The translations under genes and the position numbers were made by a program. From Undibacterium sp. KW1 (GTDB lineage Bacteria; Pseudomonadota; Gammaproteobacteria; Burkholderiales; Burkholderiaceae_D), in the NCBI RefSeq assembly GCF_009937955.1, contig NZ_AP018439.1:5766001-5830000 (forward strand): DNA of 64,000 nt, read 5' to 3'. The notes under the pieces are model-generated. The model saw only the letters and a list, made by a program, of their open reading frames with translations. It made no database searches and was not told where the DNA came from. Positions within the stretch are counted from its first letter, which is position 1, and every line of letters starts with the position of its first letter. Positions 14,005 through 22,984 of this stretch are shown piece by piece.

Positions 14005-14799
14005 ATGCAAAAGACTGCTCTTAATCTGTACAAGGCGACTCAGGCAGCGACCATGGACTTGCCCGAGGTCACCATCGCCGAGCACCTTGGTGTACGCACC
14101 CTGCATCTGTCTTCTGATGCGATACAGGGTGCCATGCGCATGGCCATGCCTGACCAGATAGAACTGGAATATGTGCAGCAAATGATGATGTGGATGCTGT
14201 TCAAATATAAACCGCAACACGTTGTACAACTGGGCCTGGGTGCAGCCGCGCTGACCAAGTTTTGCTACCGCAATTTCCCACAGGCCAGAGTCACTGCGAT
14301 AGAACTGAACCCCAAGGTCATCGCCACCTGCCACCAGCATTTCAAACTACCGGTCAACGATGAACGCCTGCAAGTGCTGTGCATGAATGCGCTGGACTAT
14401 GTCAACGACAGCGCCAACCATGGTCAGGCAGATGTCTTGCAAATTGATTTGTATGACGCCGCCGCCGAAGCCCCGGCACTCGGCAGCGCCGCGTTCTACC
14501 AGGCCTGTGCCAATTGTCTCAGCGAAGATGGCATGCTGACCGTGAACCTGTTTGGCAATCCACAAAATTACCACGCCAATTGCAATGCCAATATCGCTGC
14601 CTTGCAAGAGGCTTTTGATGCCGTCGTCTGGCTACCATTGGTACACGATGCCAACACCGTTGCCATCGCCTTCAAACAAGCACCCTCAGTTGATTTTGAA
14701 GACTTGTATGAACGCGCAACGGCAATACGCCTGGCCTGTAAATTACCGGCGGCAAAATGGGTGAATGGTCTGAAGTCCTGGATGGCGGAACACACCTAA
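14005..14799 (+). CDS. Spermidine synthase-like methyltransferase-fold protein
   Basis: The 264 residues show a Rossmann SAM/dcSAM-binding core: VVQLGLGAAALTKF (motif I), VTAIELNPKVI (acidic loop) and VLQIDLYDA (motif with the catalytic-type Asp). It resembles the short spermidine-synthase-like proteins of betaproteobacteria, but true polyamine synthase activity is not established. Its last 4 bases overlap the convergent VWA gene. Confidence 0.78.
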   Translation: MQKTALNLYKATQAATMDLPEVTIAEHLGVRTLHLSSDAIQGAMRMAMPDQIELEYVQQMMMWMLFKYKPQHVVQLGLGAAALTKFCYRNFPQARVTAIELNPKVIATCHQHFKLPVNDERLQVLCMNALDYVNDSANHGQADVLQIDLYDAAAEAPALGSAAFYQACANCLSEDGMLTVNLFGNPQNYHANCNANIAALQEAFDAVVWLPLVHDANTVAIAFKQAPSVDFEDLYERATAIRLACKLPAAKWVNGLKSWMAEHT

Positions 14800-15989
14800 G
14801 CCGCTCGTGTAGTCACTATACCCGCCTCTGCCGCCCATTGCTCCAGGTTCTGGCGTTTGATGGCAGCAGCCATCAGGTCAGGGAATAAATCCGGCGTGCA
14901 TGCAAAGCAATGCGCTCCCATGGCCGTCAGTGTGGCGGCGTTGTGGTGGTCATAGGATGGTGCGCCATTATCATCCAGCGCCAGCAGACAAATCACGCTG
15001 ACGCCATTGCGTATCATGCTGGCTGCTCTTTGCAGCATTTCCTTGTTATTACCACCTTCATACAAATCACTGATGAGAACGAAGATGGTTTCCCTCGGTC
15101 TTTGCACCAGCCCCTGGCAATAAGCCAGTGCCCGGTTGATATCCGTACCGCCACCGAGTTGCGTGCCAAATAAAACCTCTACCGGGTCACTCAGCAAATG
15201 GCTTAAATCCATGACCACGGTATCGAATACCACCACAGAGGTGCTGACTGATTTGATACTGGCCAGCACCGCACCAAATACACTGGCATATACCACCGAG
15301 GGTGCCATGGAGCCACTCTGGTCTATGCACAGGACGATATCGCGCAAGGACTGGCCCTTGCGGCCAAAACCTATGCGCGTCTCAGGGATGATGGTTTGGT
15401 AGTCATGCTGGTAATGCCTGAGATTGGCCTTGATGGTACGCATCCAGTCTATCTCGTTATGACGTGGCCTCAAATTACGTACCGCACGCTGCAAGCTGCC
15501 AGCCACGGCCTGGCGCAATGGCGTGCCCAGTTTTTTCTCCAGTTCCTGCACCACCTTGGCAACCACCTGGCGAGCAGTAGCCTTGGTCTTGTTGGGCATG
15601 ACACGGTTCAGGCTCAGCAGGGTGGCGACCAGATGCACGTCAGCTTCTACGGCCTGCAACATTTCCGGTTCCAGCAGCATTTGCTGCAAACCCAGACGAT
15701 CCAATGCATCTCTCTGCATGACTTGCACGACAGAGGAAGGGAAATAATCACGGATATCCCCGAGCCAGCGCGCTACGCTGGGTGCGGATGAACCCAGGCC
15801 AGCACGCTTGCCTGACTGTTGCTCACCCGGCTCGTACAGAGCGCTTAAAGCACGGTCTATGGCCAGGTCTTGCTGCGACAGGGTTGAGCCTGCTTGCTCA
15901 GCCTCGCTGCCCAGTACCAGGCGCCAGCGACGCAGGTTTTCTGCTGAATTTCCTGCTGAATTTTCTGTTAACTTCGGCTCATTACTCAT
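14796..15989 (-). CDS. VWA (von Willebrand A) domain protein of the MoxR/SWIM cluster
   Basis: The 397 residues have a helical N-terminal region and a C-terminal VWA domain with an intact metal-ion-dependent adhesion site. That site comprises Asp223-x-Ser225-x-Ser227, Thr282 in GGGTD and Asp308 in LISDLYEGG. The type is CoxE-like: cytosolic, with no signal or membrane segment. VWA proteins paired with MoxR ATPases usually act as metal-dependent adaptors that present a client to the ATPase. It is the last gene of the five-gene operon, and its ATG overlaps the stop of the DUF5682 gene by 4 bases. Confidence 0.88.
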   Translation of the reverse strand: MSNEPKLTENSAGNSAENLRRWRLVLGSEAEQAGSTLSQQDLAIDRALSALYEPGEQQSGKRAGLGSSAPSVARWLGDIRDYFPSSVVQVMQRDALDRLGLQQMLLEPEMLQAVEADVHLVATLLSLNRVMPNKTKATARQVVAKVVQELEKKLGTPLRQAVAGSLQRAVRNLRPRHNEIDWMRTIKANLRHYQHDYQTIIPETRIGFGRKGQSLRDIVLCIDQSGSMAPSVVYASVFGAVLASIKSVSTSVVVFDTVVMDLSHLLSDPVEVLFGTQLGGGTDINRALAYCQGLVQRPRETIFVLISDLYEGGNNKEMLQRAASMIRNGVSVICLLALDDNGAPSYDHHNAATLTAMGAHCFACTPDLFPDLMAAAIKRQNLEQWAAEAGIVTTRAA

Positions 15990-18265
15990 GCATTTGCTCC
16001 CGGCTGACCATCATGCAAAGTCTTGCCTAACATAGCCTGTAATACCGGTATCACCAGTCTTGCCCTGCTCTCGTCAAGCGCAGTATCGGTATGTAGCGTC
16101 ACTGCTGCACCCTTGCTGGCGACAGCGCGCTCACCCAGTTGATAGCGCTCGGGCCCAGCAAAACTGGAGAAGGTACGACGCAGCAGGGGCAAGAGTTCAA
16201 TAAACGTCTCCGCATTCAAACCGGACATCCAGGAATTGATCAACTGCCATAGCATGTCATTGTGTATCAGCAAGGCACCGCTGCCTTGCAAGAAGCCTTC
16301 TATCCAGTGCGCAGTCAGCAGAGGCGTCTGCGCATGGGAACAATGTACCGCCAGTTGCTGGCCAGCCTGCTCTTCGCTCCACTGCCCCTGCTCGGTTAGT
16401 ATGCGGGCACAGCGTCCGGCGATCAGGCCATGTGAACTCTCTTGCTTTGCAGTCTGTACCAGCGAGGCAAACCAGTTATTCAGATAATCCTCATTCTGCA
16501 ACATGCGCACAGCCTGGTCGGCGGCGATGAGGTCCTTGACCATTTGTGCCGCAGGTTCGTCAGCCAGGCCTCTGGCACCAACTGGCAGGGCAATACAGAT
16601 GCGGCTCAGCAGCTTGCTGACCACCAGTTCCATTGCTGCTGTGTCGGTATTACGTACATTGCCATAGCGCATGGCATTCGCCAGTGCTGGCAATGCTGCC
16701 AGCATGTAGCCAAGGTCAGGCGTGAGGGCACTGACCTCCTCTACCCTGCGCATGACTTCATGCAGAGCCGTACCAAGATTAGCCAGCAATACCCGTTCTA
16801 CCAGTTTGGTCAGTTCCGGCAAGGTCTGTGCCCGTCTTGCCATGTCGATGACATAGGAACTGGCTGCAGTTTCCAGCGTGCTGCCCCAGATATTCGCTTC
16901 TATAAGCTTGATCGCAAAATCAGGCTGCCACTCCAGCCGCCATGCTTCATGAAAGGTACCGGTCTTGCCACGCACATGCTGGCGCTTGCCCCAGTCTATG
17001 CCCAACAGGGACAAACGGTAGAGCAGGCTGCTTTTTTCCAGATGCGCCGCTTCGCGCAAATCCAGTTCAAGATCAGTGCTGTCTGCACGCACTGCCATGC
17101 GGAATTTTTTTTGCAGCAAAGCGACGTTTTGCGGCAAGGGCAAGTTCGGTGCATCTGCAGGCACGGCACCGAGCCTGTCATTGAGCAGCAATTCCCTGCG
17201 TATCAGGCGCAACGGGGCATCACTGTCATAACAAAACACGGCACGCGTGGCTTCCATGATTTCATCGAGGCCAGGATGATGACGGTCACGCAGTGCTGCA
17301 AGCGTATCTGCCAGGCGTGTGGCCTCAATAATATGGGCCGATGAGGCATCAAGATCATGCTTGCGCAGCAAATTCGCCACGTCACTCAACCAGTACAAAA
17401 CTGCCTGCTCTGGCTGATGCCATAAATGATGATACCAGCCAGGTGCCTCGACACCTGCACCATAGCCACTGGCAAATGCCAGCCTGCCATAGCTCCAAGG
17501 TGTCCAGGTGGCTGCAACTTTTACCTTGTCCAGCCCCTTGAGGATGTCAGCATCGTGTTTCGCGGTCGGCATCCTGGCCAGTGCAGGCACATGATACGCG
17601 CCACAAACAACGGCAATTTTTTGATAACCAGCTTTTTCCGCCTGACGCAGCATTTGCCGCATATAGGCTTCACGACGCACTTCAAGTTGATCCTGAAGTT
17701 GATCAGATGCCTGCGTGATTTCTGTACGCACGACTGTCATCATCTCAGCAATTGCGGCAAACAAATCCAGGCTGTCTTTGCGCTGCTCTACCAGATGATC
17801 CCACCAGGTTTCTGTATCGGCAAAGCCAGCAGCCTGTGCCAGCGCCAATAAAGGATCGGCCCGCATCAGACGTGTCTGCAAATCCACAGGCTTTACGTCT
17901 TCGTCTTCTTCATTCTCATCTTCCGTCGAGTCTTCGTTTTTTTCTGCAGATAGCAGACGGAATGCCTGCGGCAAGTCACAGAACTGCACAGGGATATTCC
18001 CGGCCACGGCAAATTGCAATGCCTGCCATTCCGGTGAAAATGCGGCAAAAGGGTAATACACGGCATTTTGCGGTGCATCCGGCACATACAGTAAGAGCGC
18101 AACTGGCGGCTGCATTTCTGCACTGGAAACAAAGGGAATCAGATCATTCGCCTCCGGCGGGCCTTCTATCAGGATGCAATCCGGCTGCAGGGCGTGCAAA
18201 GCCTCTTTCAGGCTGCGTGCGCAACCCGGGCCATGATGGCGGATACCAAACAGGTGTGTGCTCAT
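15986..18265 (-). CDS. DUF5682 family protein (ChaN/TIKI/EreA-like fold suspected)
   Basis: This large cytosolic protein has 759 residues and no signal peptide. The N-terminal ~230 residues show GIRHHGPG (Arg9, His10, His11), ILIEGPPE (Glu34), an RREAYMR helix (~197-203) and VVCGAYHVPAL (His225). This His/Glu/Arg/His pattern is like TraB/TIKI and erythromycin-esterase-type hydrolases. An acidic stretch at 108-123 interrupts the domain. The remaining ~500 residues are helical and unrecognised. It lies between the MoxR ATPase and the VWA gene and overlaps the latter by 4 bases. A hydrolase role is my inference from the motif pattern. Confidence 0.85.
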   Translation of the reverse strand: MSTHLFGIRHHGPGCARSLKEALHALQPDCILIEGPPEANDLIPFVSSAEMQPPVALLLYVPDAPQNAVYYPFAAFSPEWQALQFAVAGNIPVQFCDLPQAFRLLSAEKNEDSTEDENEEDEDVKPVDLQTRLMRADPLLALAQAAGFADTETWWDHLVEQRKDSLDLFAAIAEMMTVVRTEITQASDQLQDQLEVRREAYMRQMLRQAEKAGYQKIAVVCGAYHVPALARMPTAKHDADILKGLDKVKVAATWTPWSYGRLAFASGYGAGVEAPGWYHHLWHQPEQAVLYWLSDVANLLRKHDLDASSAHIIEATRLADTLAALRDRHHPGLDEIMEATRAVFCYDSDAPLRLIRRELLLNDRLGAVPADAPNLPLPQNVALLQKKFRMAVRADSTDLELDLREAAHLEKSSLLYRLSLLGIDWGKRQHVRGKTGTFHEAWRLEWQPDFAIKLIEANIWGSTLETAASSYVIDMARRAQTLPELTKLVERVLLANLGTALHEVMRRVEEVSALTPDLGYMLAALPALANAMRYGNVRNTDTAAMELVVSKLLSRICIALPVGARGLADEPAAQMVKDLIAADQAVRMLQNEDYLNNWFASLVQTAKQESSHGLIAGRCARILTEQGQWSEEQAGQQLAVHCSHAQTPLLTAHWIEGFLQGSGALLIHNDMLWQLINSWMSGLNAETFIELLPLLRRTFSSFAGPERYQLGERAVASKGAAVTLHTDTALDESRARLVIPVLQAMLGKTLHDGQPGANA

Positions 18266-18319
18266 CGTTAAGCACTACCCATGCTGATATTGCTATACGT
18301 ATTCTTGATACTCATTTTC

Positions 18320-19411
18320 TTAATGCATGACATCGCGGCAGGCACGATACAGGTCTTTCCAGCCTTCGCGCTCTTTGACCACGGTTTCCAGATATTCCAG
18401 CATGACGATCTTGTCCTGCACCGGGTCTTTGACTATCGCGCCTACCATACTGGCCGCGATATCTGCGCCGCGCAAAGTGCCGTCACCAAAATGTGCTGCC
18501 AGTGACATGCCATTGGCGATTACGGATATTGCCTCTGCGGCACTCAAGCTGCCGCTGGAATTTTTGAGCTTGGTCTTGCCATCTGCAGTGACGCCATCAC
18601 GCAGTTCACGGAAGATGGTAACTACCCGGCGTATCTCTTCCAGCGCAGGAATTTCGCCTGGCAATTCCAGTGCACGGCCAAGGCTGGCAACACGGGTGGC
18701 AACGATATTGACTTCTTCATCTGCCGTGCGTGGCAAGGGCAAGACCACGGTATTGAAGCGGCGCTTGAGCGCGCTCGACAATTCATTGACGCCACGATCC
18801 CTGTCATTGGCGGTGGCAATAATATTGAAACCTTTTTGCGCCTGCACTTCTTCATTCAATTCAGAAATCGGCAAGGATTTTTCTGAGAGTATGGTGATCA
18901 GGCTATCCTGTACTTCAGTCGGGATACGCGTTAATTCTTCTACCCTGCCTATCTTGCCATCACGCATGGCACGCATGATGGGGCTAGGCACCACAGCGTC
19001 CAGCGATGGCCCTTTCGATAGCAGGTGGGCGTAATTCCAGCCATAGCGGACAGTCTCTTCACTGGTACCTGCCGTACCCTGCACGATCAGGGTAGAGTCA
19101 CCGCTGATCGCAGCGGACAAATGCTCTGCCACCCAGGATTTTGCCGTACCGGGTACACCCAGCAATAGCAGCGCTCTGTCGGTTGCGAGTGTGGCTACCG
19201 CAATTTCTATGACCCTGGCATTACCTATGTACTTGGGAGAAATGACGACACCATTATCCAGCGTGCCGCCAAGCAGATAAGTGGCAACAGCCCATGGTGA
19301 CAGTTTCCAGCGTGGCGGCCTCTGGCGCGTATCGACGGCGGCCAGGGCTTCCAGTTCATTCGCGTATTGTTCTTCAGCGTGTTGACGAAGTATGCTGTCA
19401 TGAGTACTCAT
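18320..19411 (-). CDS. MoxR-family AAA+ ATPase of the SWIM/DUF5691 cluster
   Basis: The 363-residue AAA+ protein has Walker A GVPGTAKS (85-92) and the sensor-1 region IIATANDRDRG with Asn202. The segment RVEELTRIPTEVQDSL occupies the Walker B position, with Glu158-Glu159 in place of the usual Asp-Glu. MoxR ATPases act as chaperones that remodel or activate partners, typically with a VWA protein, which is encoded two genes downstream. It overlaps the DUF5691 stop by 4 bases. A 54-base gap, the only one in the operon, separates it from DUF5682. Confidence 0.92.
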   Translation of the reverse strand: MSTHDSILRQHAEEQYANELEALAAVDTRQRPPRWKLSPWAVATYLLGGTLDNGVVISPKYIGNARVIEIAVATLATDRALLLLGVPGTAKSWVAEHLSAAISGDSTLIVQGTAGTSEETVRYGWNYAHLLSKGPSLDAVVPSPIMRAMRDGKIGRVEELTRIPTEVQDSLITILSEKSLPISELNEEVQAQKGFNIIATANDRDRGVNELSSALKRRFNTVVLPLPRTADEEVNIVATRVASLGRALELPGEIPALEEIRRVVTIFRELRDGVTADGKTKLKNSSGSLSAAEAISVIANGMSLAAHFGDGTLRGADIAASMVGAIVKDPVQDKIVMLEYLETVVKEREGWKDLYRACRDVMH

Positions 19412-21015
19412 TGCTGCTCCAGAAAAGTGTGCATCATTTCGCTACGGAAGCGAAGCAATGCGAGAAAATCGTCTATTGTGGTTTGCCATTTATCCCAGTG
19501 GAGATCTGCCCTTGGCCAGTCACGTTCATATTCAAGCAATTGCGCTGGATCGATGACCAGAGCCAGAGTATTCAGCACTTGTTTCAGCGACCAGAATTCT
19601 GCTGTCAACTCATTCAGCTTATTGCGTACATGCGCCACAATCGCAATCGACAGGGCAGCAGGCAATCGCCTCTTTTGTGCTGCCACCTGCTGGAATAATT
19701 CCAGTACGGTCCACACAGAAAAATTCGATGAGGCCTGAACTGGTGCCAGCAATTCCATGAAGAAGTCATACACAAAGCCGGATTGCACATTAGCCAGTAT
19801 CTTATGGACAAAGGGCGACAGATTCGCTTTGTGCTTGCTGTCAGTGTGCATGCTCAGGCGGCTTAGTTCCAGACACCAGCCTTCAAACTGCGCTGAGGTA
19901 TTATCCTGCATGCCTGATCTGGCAGACAGGGTTTGCAGTGCTGTCGCCCAGCCAGTCAACAAGACTTGCTGGTAATCTGTCTTTGCTGCCAATGCGAATA
20001 ATTGTACCGGGCTGAGCTGCCATTTTTCTGACCAGTACAAGGGCGAGACTGCTGCGAGCATGTCCAGCAACCAGCCAGCTTTTTCACCTGTGCCGTGATA
20101 AGTGGCGCTGCCCACACCATCACGCTGCATGGCTTTATCGCGTTCCAGTGGCAGGCTGACTACCAGTTCAGTATCACCGATGATGTCCGGTCTGATGCTC
20201 AGCAAAGTATCCAGTCTGGCGCGCATGCGCAGTTCAAGCAAAGAATCTGGCAGGCTCAATAACAAAGTTTGCGCGGTTGTGCGCACTTCCTTGCGTTTAT
20301 CGTCGAGTGCGCGCTCCAGGAATTCCTGATCGGCTGCGCTCAGATTTTCTTTCAAACACTGTATCAGGCGTATGCGATGCTCAGGTGGCTCGGTACTCCA
20401 GACTTCCTGCAGCATGGTGAGGCCCAGCTCAGGGTCTTTGCTGCGGCTGAGTCGCAACACTTCCAGCCTTTGCTCCAGCGTGCCGGTTTCCCATAGCCCA
20501 TCCTCAACCAGCTCTGTCTCTGCTTGCCAGCTCCAGGATGGGTTCTGCCTTGCCAGCCATTTGCCACGCTCGCCCATGACTGCGGCGACATAGGGCCGCA
20601 AGACAGGCTGGGTGCGCCCCAGTTCCAGCATGGCAGGTAAAAATTTGTACGGTAAATGACAGCCATGCTGCTTTGCCAGGCTCAGCCATTCAAAGCGCAA
20701 TTCAGGATATGTGCCCTGCAATAATAAAGATAATTTTGTTTCCGCCCGTTGCGTACAAGGCTGGAGTTTTTCATCTGCGGCTATTTTAGTGGCGCGGCTG
20801 GTGATTGCCAAAGCCTGTGCCCCGGCACGCGTCCATAAGTCCAGTGCCGAGATGCGTTCCCAGAGATCCGATTCGGGCATATCAGTGTGCTTTGTTGCAT
20901 CAGCAAAAACGCTATCCTGCAAGGCGGCAGGCAAGTCATTCTGCGCTTGCGCTCCGGCGCGTGAAGTGCCCAGCAATAGAGATTTTTTTATGCTGGCGGT
21001 AAGCATCGACGTCAT
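19408..21015 (-). CDS. DUF5691 family protein
   Basis: This is a 535-residue, leucine-rich, largely helical protein with repeated short helical pairs, such as DDKRKEVRTTAQTLLLSLPDS, that suggest a HEAT-like scaffold. There is no signal peptide, membrane segment or catalytic motif. I know the family only as a regular partner of SWIM, MoxR and VWA genes. The ATG at 21015 overlaps the SWIM gene stop in an ATGA arrangement and is preferred over the TTG at 21024. Both ends overlap neighbouring genes by 4 bases, so translation is probably coupled. Confidence 0.8.
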   Translation of the reverse strand: MTSMLTASIKKSLLLGTSRAGAQAQNDLPAALQDSVFADATKHTDMPESDLWERISALDLWTRAGAQALAITSRATKIAADEKLQPCTQRAETKLSLLLQGTYPELRFEWLSLAKQHGCHLPYKFLPAMLELGRTQPVLRPYVAAVMGERGKWLARQNPSWSWQAETELVEDGLWETGTLEQRLEVLRLSRSKDPELGLTMLQEVWSTEPPEHRIRLIQCLKENLSAADQEFLERALDDKRKEVRTTAQTLLLSLPDSLLELRMRARLDTLLSIRPDIIGDTELVVSLPLERDKAMQRDGVGSATYHGTGEKAGWLLDMLAAVSPLYWSEKWQLSPVQLFALAAKTDYQQVLLTGWATALQTLSARSGMQDNTSAQFEGWCLELSRLSMHTDSKHKANLSPFVHKILANVQSGFVYDFFMELLAPVQASSNFSVWTVLELFQQVAAQKRRLPAALSIAIVAHVRNKLNELTAEFWSLKQVLNTLALVIDPAQLLEYERDWPRADLHWDKWQTTIDDFLALLRFRSEMMHTFLEQQ

Positions 21016-22370
21016 AGGAGACAATCACTTTCAAGACTCAAGAATTGCCGGTCTGTCTGTACCGAGAGTGGGGTAAAACAATAGCCATCCCATTCACCTA
21101 CCAATGTCATGGGCTGACCACCACTGACGGCCAGCAATTGCCATCCATAGGCAAAGTTTTCTGGCAAGTGCAGGGCTTGCTGGTCAGGCAAAATGGCAAG
21201 CCAGCGTTCACCATCCAGTTGCAGGCGTAGCCCGGACAAACTCAGTGGCAGGCGTTCGATAAAGGGATTGGCGGCAATTGCCCTGGCATAGCTTTGCATA
21301 CCTGCGTCAAATTGCGTGGCCGGGAATTGATATTCTTTAATGACGCTGACATTGCGCTGATCCTTGATCAAGGCACGCAGAGGAGCTGCCCCCGGATAGA
21401 ACACCAGTTCTCCTTCAAATTCACTACCGACGGCGATAGGCCGGTCAAAGCCCTGGGTACCAACGGCATATTGCAAAAACATTGCCCACAGCCCGCTGCT
21501 CTTACCGCATAAATAGGTGATGCGTGTACGCACACGCTCGTCATCACGGGTTTTCTGCGCCACTACCTGCCAGCAATCGACTTGCCCGGCTTGCGCCAGC
21601 AAACTATCCTGACTCTGGTTCCAGCCCAGCATGCTGCGCACATCTTCCTGCAAATCGGGTGTCAGGCTATCTATCTTTTGATAAGCCCTGATCAGCAGAT
21701 AAATGGCGGCTATTTCGCGTGCCAGTTGCTCTTCCCAATCGCTGATACTGGTTTGAAAAGCCAGCCTGCCTGCGCGTGACAGACGCCCGGCCAGCGGTGC
21801 CATCTGCGCATCAACCATGCGGGCGGCGATGGCATCCCACTGGGCAGTACCGGCATTGCGCAAGCTGGAAAAACCTTCCCTGGCGAGATCTTCCAGCCAG
21901 GTCTGCAATTCCTGCAAGCCACGGGCGACTTTGGCCTCGCGTTTTTCTTCACGCTTTTGCGCCTGCTCTGCCTGTTGCGCGATTTTTTCCGGCGTCAGGT
22001 TTTGCAGTTTCTCTTCTGCTGTTTCCTGCTTTTTCGTGGCGCGGGCTTCGCGGCTTTGCAACCAGTCCAGATTCCATTGCGGTGCCGGTGTCGCAGCAAA
22101 TAATTCTGTTTTTCCTGAGTAAAGCAAGAACAGGCCCAGCCCATGCTTGCAAGGGAATTTACGGCTGGGGCAACTACATTTGAAAGCAGGCTCACGCAAA
22201 TCTATCTGGGCGCGATAAGGGGTGGAGCCGCTACCCTGGCATTCGCCCCAGACAGCAATGTCGGAATTGCCGAGATTACTCCATTTGGAGGCTGTTGCCA
22301 GTGCACTGCCAGCTTTTGCTGAACTGGCATCAGGCGCGAGTGCAAGAATTTGATCGGTACTTAAAGTCAC
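21012..22370 (-). CDS. SWIM zinc-finger protein, first gene of the cluster
   Basis: The 452 residues carry a SWIM zinc finger with ligands Cys65, Cys67, Cys74 and His76 (KCSCPSRKFPCKHGLG). An Ala/Glu/Lys-rich coiled segment follows (~105-160), then a long unassigned C-terminal region. SWIM fingers bind DNA or proteins. It is cytosolic and heads the operon. The upstream 209 bases (22371-22579) would hold the promoter, but I see no clear boxes. Confidence 0.88.
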   Translation of the reverse strand: MTLSTDQILALAPDASSAKAGSALATASKWSNLGNSDIAVWGECQGSGSTPYRAQIDLREPAFKCSCPSRKFPCKHGLGLFLLYSGKTELFAATPAPQWNLDWLQSREARATKKQETAEEKLQNLTPEKIAQQAEQAQKREEKREAKVARGLQELQTWLEDLAREGFSSLRNAGTAQWDAIAARMVDAQMAPLAGRLSRAGRLAFQTSISDWEEQLAREIAAIYLLIRAYQKIDSLTPDLQEDVRSMLGWNQSQDSLLAQAGQVDCWQVVAQKTRDDERVRTRITYLCGKSSGLWAMFLQYAVGTQGFDRPIAVGSEFEGELVFYPGAAPLRALIKDQRNVSVIKEYQFPATQFDAGMQSYARAIAANPFIERLPLSLSGLRLQLDGERWLAILPDQQALHLPENFAYGWQLLAVSGGQPMTLVGEWDGYCFTPLSVQTDRQFLSLESDCLL

Positions 22371-22579
22371 TTGTTTGAGCGTAACGTTTTACTGTGTAGA
22401 TTGCTGTCTTAGTTTCTGACATTCATGATCAAGTCTAAGTGCTTGCAAGGCCCTGACAGGTTCCCGCATCAACAGCACTTTTCTTGGCTCAGCATTTAAT
22501 CATACTTTTATGACAAGCGGAAAATTTCAGCTTCTTCTTGCCACTTTTTCTTCACAGTAGAACCGCAATGCACGGAAAC

Positions 22580-22984
22580 TTACCCGGCTTCTGCTTCTTC
22601 ATGATGACAGCAAACACAAAGCTTGTTGCCATCTGGATCGCGGAAATAAGCGCCGTAGTAATTAGGATGATAATGCGGACGCAAACCTGGCGCTCCCTCA
22701 CAAGTGCCACCATGCGCCAGTGCCGCTGCATGGGCACGCTGCACCGCTGCACGTGATGAAGCCAGCAATGCCACCATCTGGCCATTGCCATGCTGTGCGG
22801 CTTCGCCGTTAAAAGGTTTGCCGATGACAAACAAAGGACGTGGCTGGTCTGCTGACATCCAGCCTGCCCAAGGCTTGCCTGCATCCTTGAATTTCAAGAC
22901 CAGGCCCAACTCAGTCATGAGGGCAGAGTAAAACGAAAAAGATTTATCAAAATCCTGTATGCCTGTGAATACATGGGAAATCAT
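22580..22984 (-). CDS. VOC family (glyoxalase/bleomycin-resistance fold) protein
   Basis: This 134-residue single-chain VOC protein opens with MISHVFTGIQDFDKSFSFY and closes with YYGAYFRDPDGNKLCVCCH. Both half-modules of the fold, including His4 and the terminal acidic region, are visible. Such dimers hold a metal and act as dioxygenases, lyases or binding proteins. The substrate is not predictable. It sits alone, upstream of the SWIM operon. Confidence 0.85.
   Translation of the reverse strand: MISHVFTGIQDFDKSFSFYSALMTELGLVLKFKDAGKPWAGWMSADQPRPLFVIGKPFNGEAAQHGNGQMVALLASSRAAVQRAHAAALAHGGTCEGAPGLRPHYHPNYYGAYFRDPDGNKLCVCCHHEEAEAG

Follow-up and report, generated by a model that had tools for sequence, protein, structure and literature searches.

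The window analyzed here is a stretch of 64,000 nt from Undibacterium sp. KW1 (GCF_009937955.1, NZ_AP018439.1, positions 5,766,001-5,830,000 of the forward strand). It contains a cassette of five open reading frames (ORFs), all on the minus strand, that encode, in reading order, a SWIM zinc-finger protein, a DUF5691 protein, a MoxR AAA+ ATPase, a DUF5682 protein and a VWA_CoxE protein (Table 1). Pfam assigned them with E-values of 9.5e-5 (SWIM; 22.3 bits against a cut-off of 19.6), 3.2e-109 (DUF5691), 2.9e-38 (AAA_5), 7.9e-261 (DUF5682) and 1e-49 (VWA_CoxE), and no NCBIfam model passed its cut-off for any of the five. The original prediction, made from the nucleotide sequence, had described five co-directional genes with three ATGA overlaps and one 54-base gap. 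The ORF coordinates and Pfam names agree with it: the overlaps lie at 21012-21015, 19408-19411 and 15986-15989, and MoxR and DUF5682 are separated by 54 bases (18266-18319). The GC content of the cassette is 0.541, compared to 0.517 for the window, and Pfam detected no integrase or transposase among its five genes. Promoter predictions numbered 3 where 6.6 were expected, and terminators 12 where 8.9 were expected (standard deviation 3.2).

Table 1. Positions of the cassette genes and their main features in the window
Feature	Position	Strand	Remarks
Gene 1, SWIM zinc-finger protein	21012..22370	-	452 aa, GTG start at 22370
SWIM finger ligands CxC...CxH, residues 65-76	22143..22178	-	Motif count in homologues and alignment
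Gene 2, DUF5691	19408..21015	-	535 aa, ATGA overlap with gene 1
Gene 3, MoxR AAA+ ATPase, YehL type	18320..19411	-	363 aa, ATGA overlap with gene 2
MoxR Walker A, residues 85-92, GVPGTAKS	19136..19159	-	Residue conservation
Gene 4, DUF5682	15986..18265	-	759 aa; TIKI-superfamily-like N-terminal domain and long, mostly helical C-terminal part
DUF5682 TIKI/TraB/ChaN/EreA-like domain, residues 1-240 (G7xxH10, E34, R198, G222xxH225)	17546..18265	-	
Gene 5, VWA_CoxE protein, YehP type	14796..15989	-	397 aa, ATGA overlap with gene 4
VWA metal-ion-dependent adhesion site (MIDAS) DxSxS, residues 223-227 (completed by T282, D308)	15309..15323	-	Residue conservation
Cassette extent	14801..22593	none	Block missing in same-genus genome G458, 26 bp instead (blastn, window against L152)

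The five genes behave as one unit, and this architecture is well supported. We assembled 94 loci. A genome scan supplied 80 of them, and the others are the window, E. coli K-12 and 12 stretches that come from 11 genomes. The scanned loci are the best 80 of 582 confirmed loci ranked by similarity to the DUF5682 protein of the window, a ranking that favors the window's type. All five families were present in 71 of the 94 loci, and each of these 71 complete loci carried them in the canonical order on a single strand (four SWIM-DUF5691 fusions, one of them without the finger, are counted as complete). Among the best 80 of the 582, 65 were complete, two more had a SWIM gene cut by the contig end and 13 lacked parts. 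Contig ends explain some of the incomplete loci; others keep flanking DNA where the partner would be expected, and a partner was missing despite flanking DNA on at least one side in L034, L039, L045, L061, L076, L078, L094, L102 and L107. Complete loci were found in phyla including Pseudomonadota, Cyanobacteriota, Chloroflexota, Planctomycetota, Bacteroidota, Actinomycetota, Verrucomicrobiota, Acidobacteriota and Deinococcota.

Co-occurrence was followed in 299 genomes of the phylum. DUF5682 was found in 12 of them and DUF5691, over its cut-off, in six, exactly those with a window-type DUF5682 and gene order; two sub-threshold DUF5691 matches fall in genomes without DUF5682. The original prediction had staked its one-unit view on the families occurring together in other genomes, and this view is upheld by the co-occurrence of DUF5691 and DUF5682 in the same six genomes, by the fixed order in 71 of 71 loci and by fusion of the first two genes. 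SWIM and DUF5691 form a single protein in L041, L054 and L104 and are also fused in L093, in an ORF without the finger; such fusions occur in some Planctomycetota and Actinomycetota. A search with the L041 fusion returned 324 relatives, and 115 of the 120 listed were 898-1071 aa long, which shows that fusions are many, not how frequent they are, because the length window of the search drops most unfused proteins. The Cys and His residues of the finger were invariant in 71 of 71 rows (68 of the 120 listed fusion relatives plus three locus fusions). SWIM and DUF5691 are shown in this way to be one functional part. Divergence of the five proteins was also correlated between loci, with rank correlations of 0.40 to 0.80 and none of 999 permutations as high even for the weakest pair; common host ancestry also yields correlation of this kind.

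A conserved sixth gene was considered and rejected. Ten flanking clusters were found in four or more loci, up to 14, and ABC-transporter ATPases form the largest; the representatives of seven belong to general families (histidine kinase, dehydrogenase, pirin, AraC, sulfatase-modifying factor-like, MFS and aminotransferase), and one further cluster consists of antisense ORFs without a Pfam match. A Pfam-less gene on the same strand lies downstream of VWA in most of five loci (L086:12330-13409; mates in L057, L067 and L079) and is a possible sixth partner in some lineages. In Variovorax sp. OK212 (L079:4857-9944), two genes of 901 and 784 aa separate MoxR from DUF5682, the first of which matches HSP90-type ATPase domains.

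MoxR AAA+ proteins are marked by Walker A, Walker B, sensor 1 and arginine-finger motifs. In 83 of 88 MoxR ORFs, chosen by length, residues G85, P87, G88, T89, K91, N202, R217 and R218 were kept in 83 of 83, and Walker B (residues 158-159) reads EE rather than DE in all 83. The ATPase of the original prediction is supported by these intact motifs. Among 75 of 87 VWA ORFs, again chosen by length, D223, S225, S227 and D308 were present in 75 of 75 and T282 in 73 of 75. Among solved bacterial proteins, NorQ is the closest to the window MoxR, and midasin scores higher over a shorter stretch; for the VWA protein, sequence search found no solved relative at E<=0.01. For NorQ/NorD it has been proposed that the VWA domain plugs the ring, that its MIDAS binds the client and that the client is remodeled for metal insertion (PMC9976466). 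As in NorQ/NorD, CbbQ/CbbO and RavA/ViaA, the window pairs an AAA+ MoxR with a MIDAS-bearing VWA protein. In contrast to these systems, the cassette adds three conserved partners, one with a hydrolase-like domain, and no known client enzyme was seen near it.

The three-gene core has relatives in the yeh operon of E. coli K-12, where the order is yehI (DUF4132), yehK, yehL (MoxR), yehM (DUF5682), yehP (VWA) and yehQ (SWIM), with the WGR gene yehF further upstream. Over 362 columns the window MoxR and YehL share 41% identity (E=1e-78); for DUF5682 and YehM the figure is 30% over 522 columns, in the first two thirds, and for the VWA protein and YehP it is 34% over 357 columns. Both operons have the order MoxR-DUF5682-VWA and include a SWIM gene; however, the latter stands last in E. 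coli and first in the window, and no DUF5691 match was found among the yeh proteins scanned, DUF4132 lying upstream instead. Full homology of YehQ and the window SWIM protein is at most weakly indicated, the two not being alignable by BLASTP and a profile comparison giving P=0.0003 over 158 columns with a probability of 39%. Kinship of DUF5691 with DUF4132, which flank the core in type A and type B loci (defined below), is likewise not supported: hhalign aligned 123 repeat-like columns at P=0.0025, a value that carries little weight for helical repeats. In PMC3893208, YehL appears as the name of a MoxR subfamily. Relatedness to YehL and the MoxR-DUF5682-VWA gene core place the window MoxR in YehL-type systems, as judged by similarity and not by the original classification criteria.

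We refer to the gene set of the window as type A and to that of E. coli as type B. The yehL-Q stretch was matched in 5301 of 5426 E. coli genomes, in 5162 at a coverage of at least 80%. Among the stretches from the 11 genomes, type B (DUF4132, MoxR, DUF5682, VWA and YehQ-like) was complete in L021, L022, L023, L025 and L027; a contig end truncates L024, and L026 has two DUF4132 genes. Seven type A loci of Bacteroidota also carry a DUF4132 gene, six directly after VWA and one before it (L058, L063, L064, L069, L083, L090 and L097), and this gene, next to or inside their cassettes, links types A and B. In the DUF5682 tree, from which E. coli is absent, one branch splits five type B proteins from 84 of type A. 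The cassette is in one sense ordinary, a member of a known but uncharacterized MoxR-VWA group of the YehL type; what is new is that DUF5682 is assigned to a superfamily, that types A and B are told apart, that SWIM and DUF5691 are recognized as a unit and that there is evidence of the block being gained or lost. The original prediction was right that no function had been assigned, as far as the literature searched goes, but it missed the link to YehL, YehM and YehP, of which the three core proteins are homologues. DUF5682 and DUF5691 had no mention in that literature, and among the hits listed yeh names occurred in two genome papers or as unrelated word uses; subscription literature lay mostly outside the reach of this search.

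The finger of the SWIM protein is strictly kept, with CxCx(2-12)CxH present in 69 of 70 homologues longer than 400 aa and its ligands invariant in a 26-row alignment. The predicted structure of the L041 fusion, a relative and not the window protein itself, reached a predicted local distance difference test (pLDDT) score of 91 and a predicted template modeling (pTM) score of 0.83. In it the finger and long helices are accompanied by a beta-rich part (263-446) and by a solenoid matching HEAT and armadillo proteins. This supports the helical scaffold proposed for DUF5691 at the outset, in the form of a HEAT-like alpha-solenoid. Foldseek gave weak matches of this model to HIN, SSB, RPA and EF-P proteins, none below E=0.08 and with no residue ranges given, which we take to be oligonucleotide/oligosaccharide-binding (OB) folds. 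The 50 VIA rows, which barely cover the beta-rich part, contained no OB protein. There is a hint, and no more than a hint, that the beta-rich part of the model may be OB-like and bind nucleic acid. The best structural matches of this model, all of them weak, also include the ZSWIM8-CUL3 complex (PDB 9rwz_M, 9rwz_N). By sequence, no convincing solved relative was found for SWIM (best E=0.66) or DUF5691 (best 0.036, an artificial protein).

Members of the TIKI/TraB/ChaN/EreA superfamily share two GxxH motifs and a conserved Glu, which are also present in the TraB alignment. Residues 1-240 of DUF5682 contain two GxxH motifs, one Glu and one Arg in register with TraB; H10, E34, G222 and H225 were invariant in 56 sequences, and Gly7 was conserved in at least 90%, with Pro in its place in several type B members. 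The N-terminal domain has the parallel beta-sheet core common to ChaN and BcR135, a modest fold match. These first 240 residues look like a TIKI/TraB/ChaN/EreA-superfamily domain and a predicted hydrolase, in support of the possible hydrolase that had been suggested for this gene. A 2His/2Glu catalytic set has been described for RRSP (PMC6254334). DUF5682 offers two His and one Glu, with Ile8 two residues before the first His, where the 20 aligned TraB proteins have Thr or Ser; because the first Glu of the set is missing, we assign it to the wider superfamily and not to the RRSP/Ere branch. It further differs from the superfamily in that the domain is fused to about 500 mostly helical residues and tied to a MoxR-VWA motor, and sequence scores are weak: no solved relative of DUF5682 found by sequence was convincing (best E=0.94), and the solved structures retrieved with a TraB profile were mainly helical proteins, designed chains among them. 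The best structural match of the N-terminal domain is a Tetrahymena complex IV subunit (PDB 8b6h_DQ, 8bqs_DQ, 7w5z_E).

The cassette comes and goes as a block. In G458, of the same genus, its flanks are contiguous and window positions 14800 and 22594 map 26 bp apart by blastn; in G444, G452 and G445 (same genus; L153, L154 and L155) it is likewise missing at the window site, with no operon match. DUF5682 was detected over its cut-off in 12 of 145 genomes of the family, and for the genus the count is 8 of 43, made up of four genomes that score as full-length type A, three that score as type B and one with a fragment. The window locus recurs in G467 (95.6% over 19 kb), and G443 and G463 hold complete five-gene cassettes in other surroundings, their DUF5682 being 42% and 54% identical to that of the window. 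In the tree (89 of 96 DUF5682 proteins, built by a quick method, with long branches in type B), the G443 copy (L163) falls within a Planctomycetota/Chloroflexota/Thermomicrobiota group, with support of 100 (seven rows) and of 87 for the join with Planctomycetaceae; the G463 copy shares a group with Duganella and Massilia glaciei, and Massilia frigida is among those that group with the window copy. Scattered taxon labels in this tree are no proof of transfer, as the tree tool itself warns. We read this as probable repeated horizontal gain, although the difference at the window locus itself may reflect either gain or loss. G407 and G434, of the same family (L136, L137, L148-L151), have three DUF5682 genes each, by score one type A-like and two type B-like. 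A 14 kb record labeled Bacteriophage sp. (MT835988.1), which may be bacterial DNA, encodes a DUF5682 relative with 27% identity.

We tentatively favor, as possible though short of probable, a mobile five-gene YehL-type MoxR-VWA cassette whose NorQ/NorD-like motor switches on the DUF5682 hydrolase, with SWIM-DUF5691 recognizing the trigger. MoxR would form an ATP-driven ring, and the VWA protein would plug into it as an adaptor and grip the client via the MIDAS metal, as NorD does for NorQ. DUF5682 would be a built-in client, with a TIKI/TraB/EreA-type hydrolase core and a long helical-repeat C-terminal part, and the motor would remodel it so that the hydrolase is switched on or its metal loaded. 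SWIM and DUF5691 would together be the recognition arm, from which the motor learns when or where it is needed. The computed basis of this model is the unit, its order and fusion, the intact motifs, the motif register, the modest fold match and the block presence and absence. We infer that DUF5682 is active, that it is the client, a role transferred from client remodeling by NorQ/NorD, and that SWIM-DUF5691 is the sensor, and the trigger and the reaction are of the same standing.

The cassette could instead be a conflict system against phages or plasmids, in which SWIM-DUF5691 detects incoming nucleic acid or a complex that has stalled, MoxR-VWA transmits the signal and DUF5682 cleaves an essential host or phage molecule. 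We regard this as unlikely but as a serious candidate. Its patchy presence in family and genus, with both types counted in the genus, the clean block of presence or absence and the grouping of a copy with other phyla would fit, and such a role has been proposed for other vWA-MoxR systems (PMC7159879). The ternary systems described there also combine a MoxR-vWA pair with a fixed extra component and are patchily distributed, although VMAP, iSTAND, FtsH and beta-propeller are not among the Pfam matches of the operon, where remote versions are possible. SWIM, DUF5682, YehL, Tiki, TraB and WGR have no mention in the main text of that article. The window MoxR gave a sub-threshold match to bpMoxR of one vWA-MoxR conflict system (24.4 bits against a cut-off of 27), but PADLOC models (2023 library) matched none of the five proteins. 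In one same-genus copy (L164; 5335-6736, 15259-17043), a RES-domain gene with a small neighbor lies near one end of the cassette, and an HSP70 gene flanks the opposite end. The ten window neighbors, which by Pfam include amino-acid ABC transporter, glyoxalase-like and methyltransferase-like genes and ThiF, show no obvious defense island (PADLOC was run on the five proteins only), and 84 pattern matches in IMG/VR contigs included no relative. The near-constant presence of type B in E. coli, unlike that of a fast-turnover defense gene, argues against pure defense for this branch.

We consider it rather doubtful that the motor serves an outside client, such as a metalloenzyme or respiratory complex, with DUF5682, DUF5691 and SWIM as adaptors and the TIKI-like domain as a binding scaffold instead of an enzyme. 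Known MoxR-VWA pairs do mature outside clients, as NorQD does cNOR (PMC9976466) and RavA-ViaA acts on Nuo (PMC3893208); the missing first Glu of the RRSP set and the lack of any enzyme-like cassette gene beyond MoxR and DUF5682 point the same way. However, the would-be catalytic residues are among the most strictly kept of DUF5682 in both types, and the recurrent flanking clusters hold no fixed client gene, though a client need not be a neighbor.

A DNA- or RNA-damage response machine, in which SWIM, plus WGR/DUF4132 in type B, binds damaged nucleic acid and the motor clears bound protein, is improbable. In its favor, type B in E. coli adjoins DUF4132 near a WGR gene, the fusion model has several weak matches to HIN, SSB, RPA and EF-P, and DdrO depletion in Deinococcus raises DUF4132 and WGR-domain genes (PMC8533742). 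Against it, those genes are not raised in irradiated irrE-deleted cells, any adjacency of theirs to a MoxR-DUF5682 locus is hypothetical, and the OB matches are as weak as described above. From the SWIM gene to the cassette end there is no LexA-type box, even when one mismatch is allowed, and such boxes were rejected as a regulatory signal because they occur window-wide at chance level (28 found against 24.6 expected).

Returning to the motor-driven hydrolase, the operon core is present in nearly all the E. coli genomes searched and in many bacterial phyla, and it has no assigned function in the literature searched. The hydrolase-type fold, the candidate catalytic residues and the SWIM-DUF5691 unit turn five unknown domains into specific tests that are feasible in E. 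coli K-12. More speculatively, and in our view with little likelihood as yet, these cassettes may represent an unnamed class of ATP-licensed hydrolase system, combining a mobile MoxR-VWA motor, a TIKI-family hydrolase and a nucleic-acid-sensing SWIM/HEAT arm, that would act in many phyla as an effector of immunity or of quality control, with yehLMPQ as its chromosomal cousin. If the proposed mechanism is true, MoxR-VWA machines would extend from maturation chaperones to hydrolase regulators.

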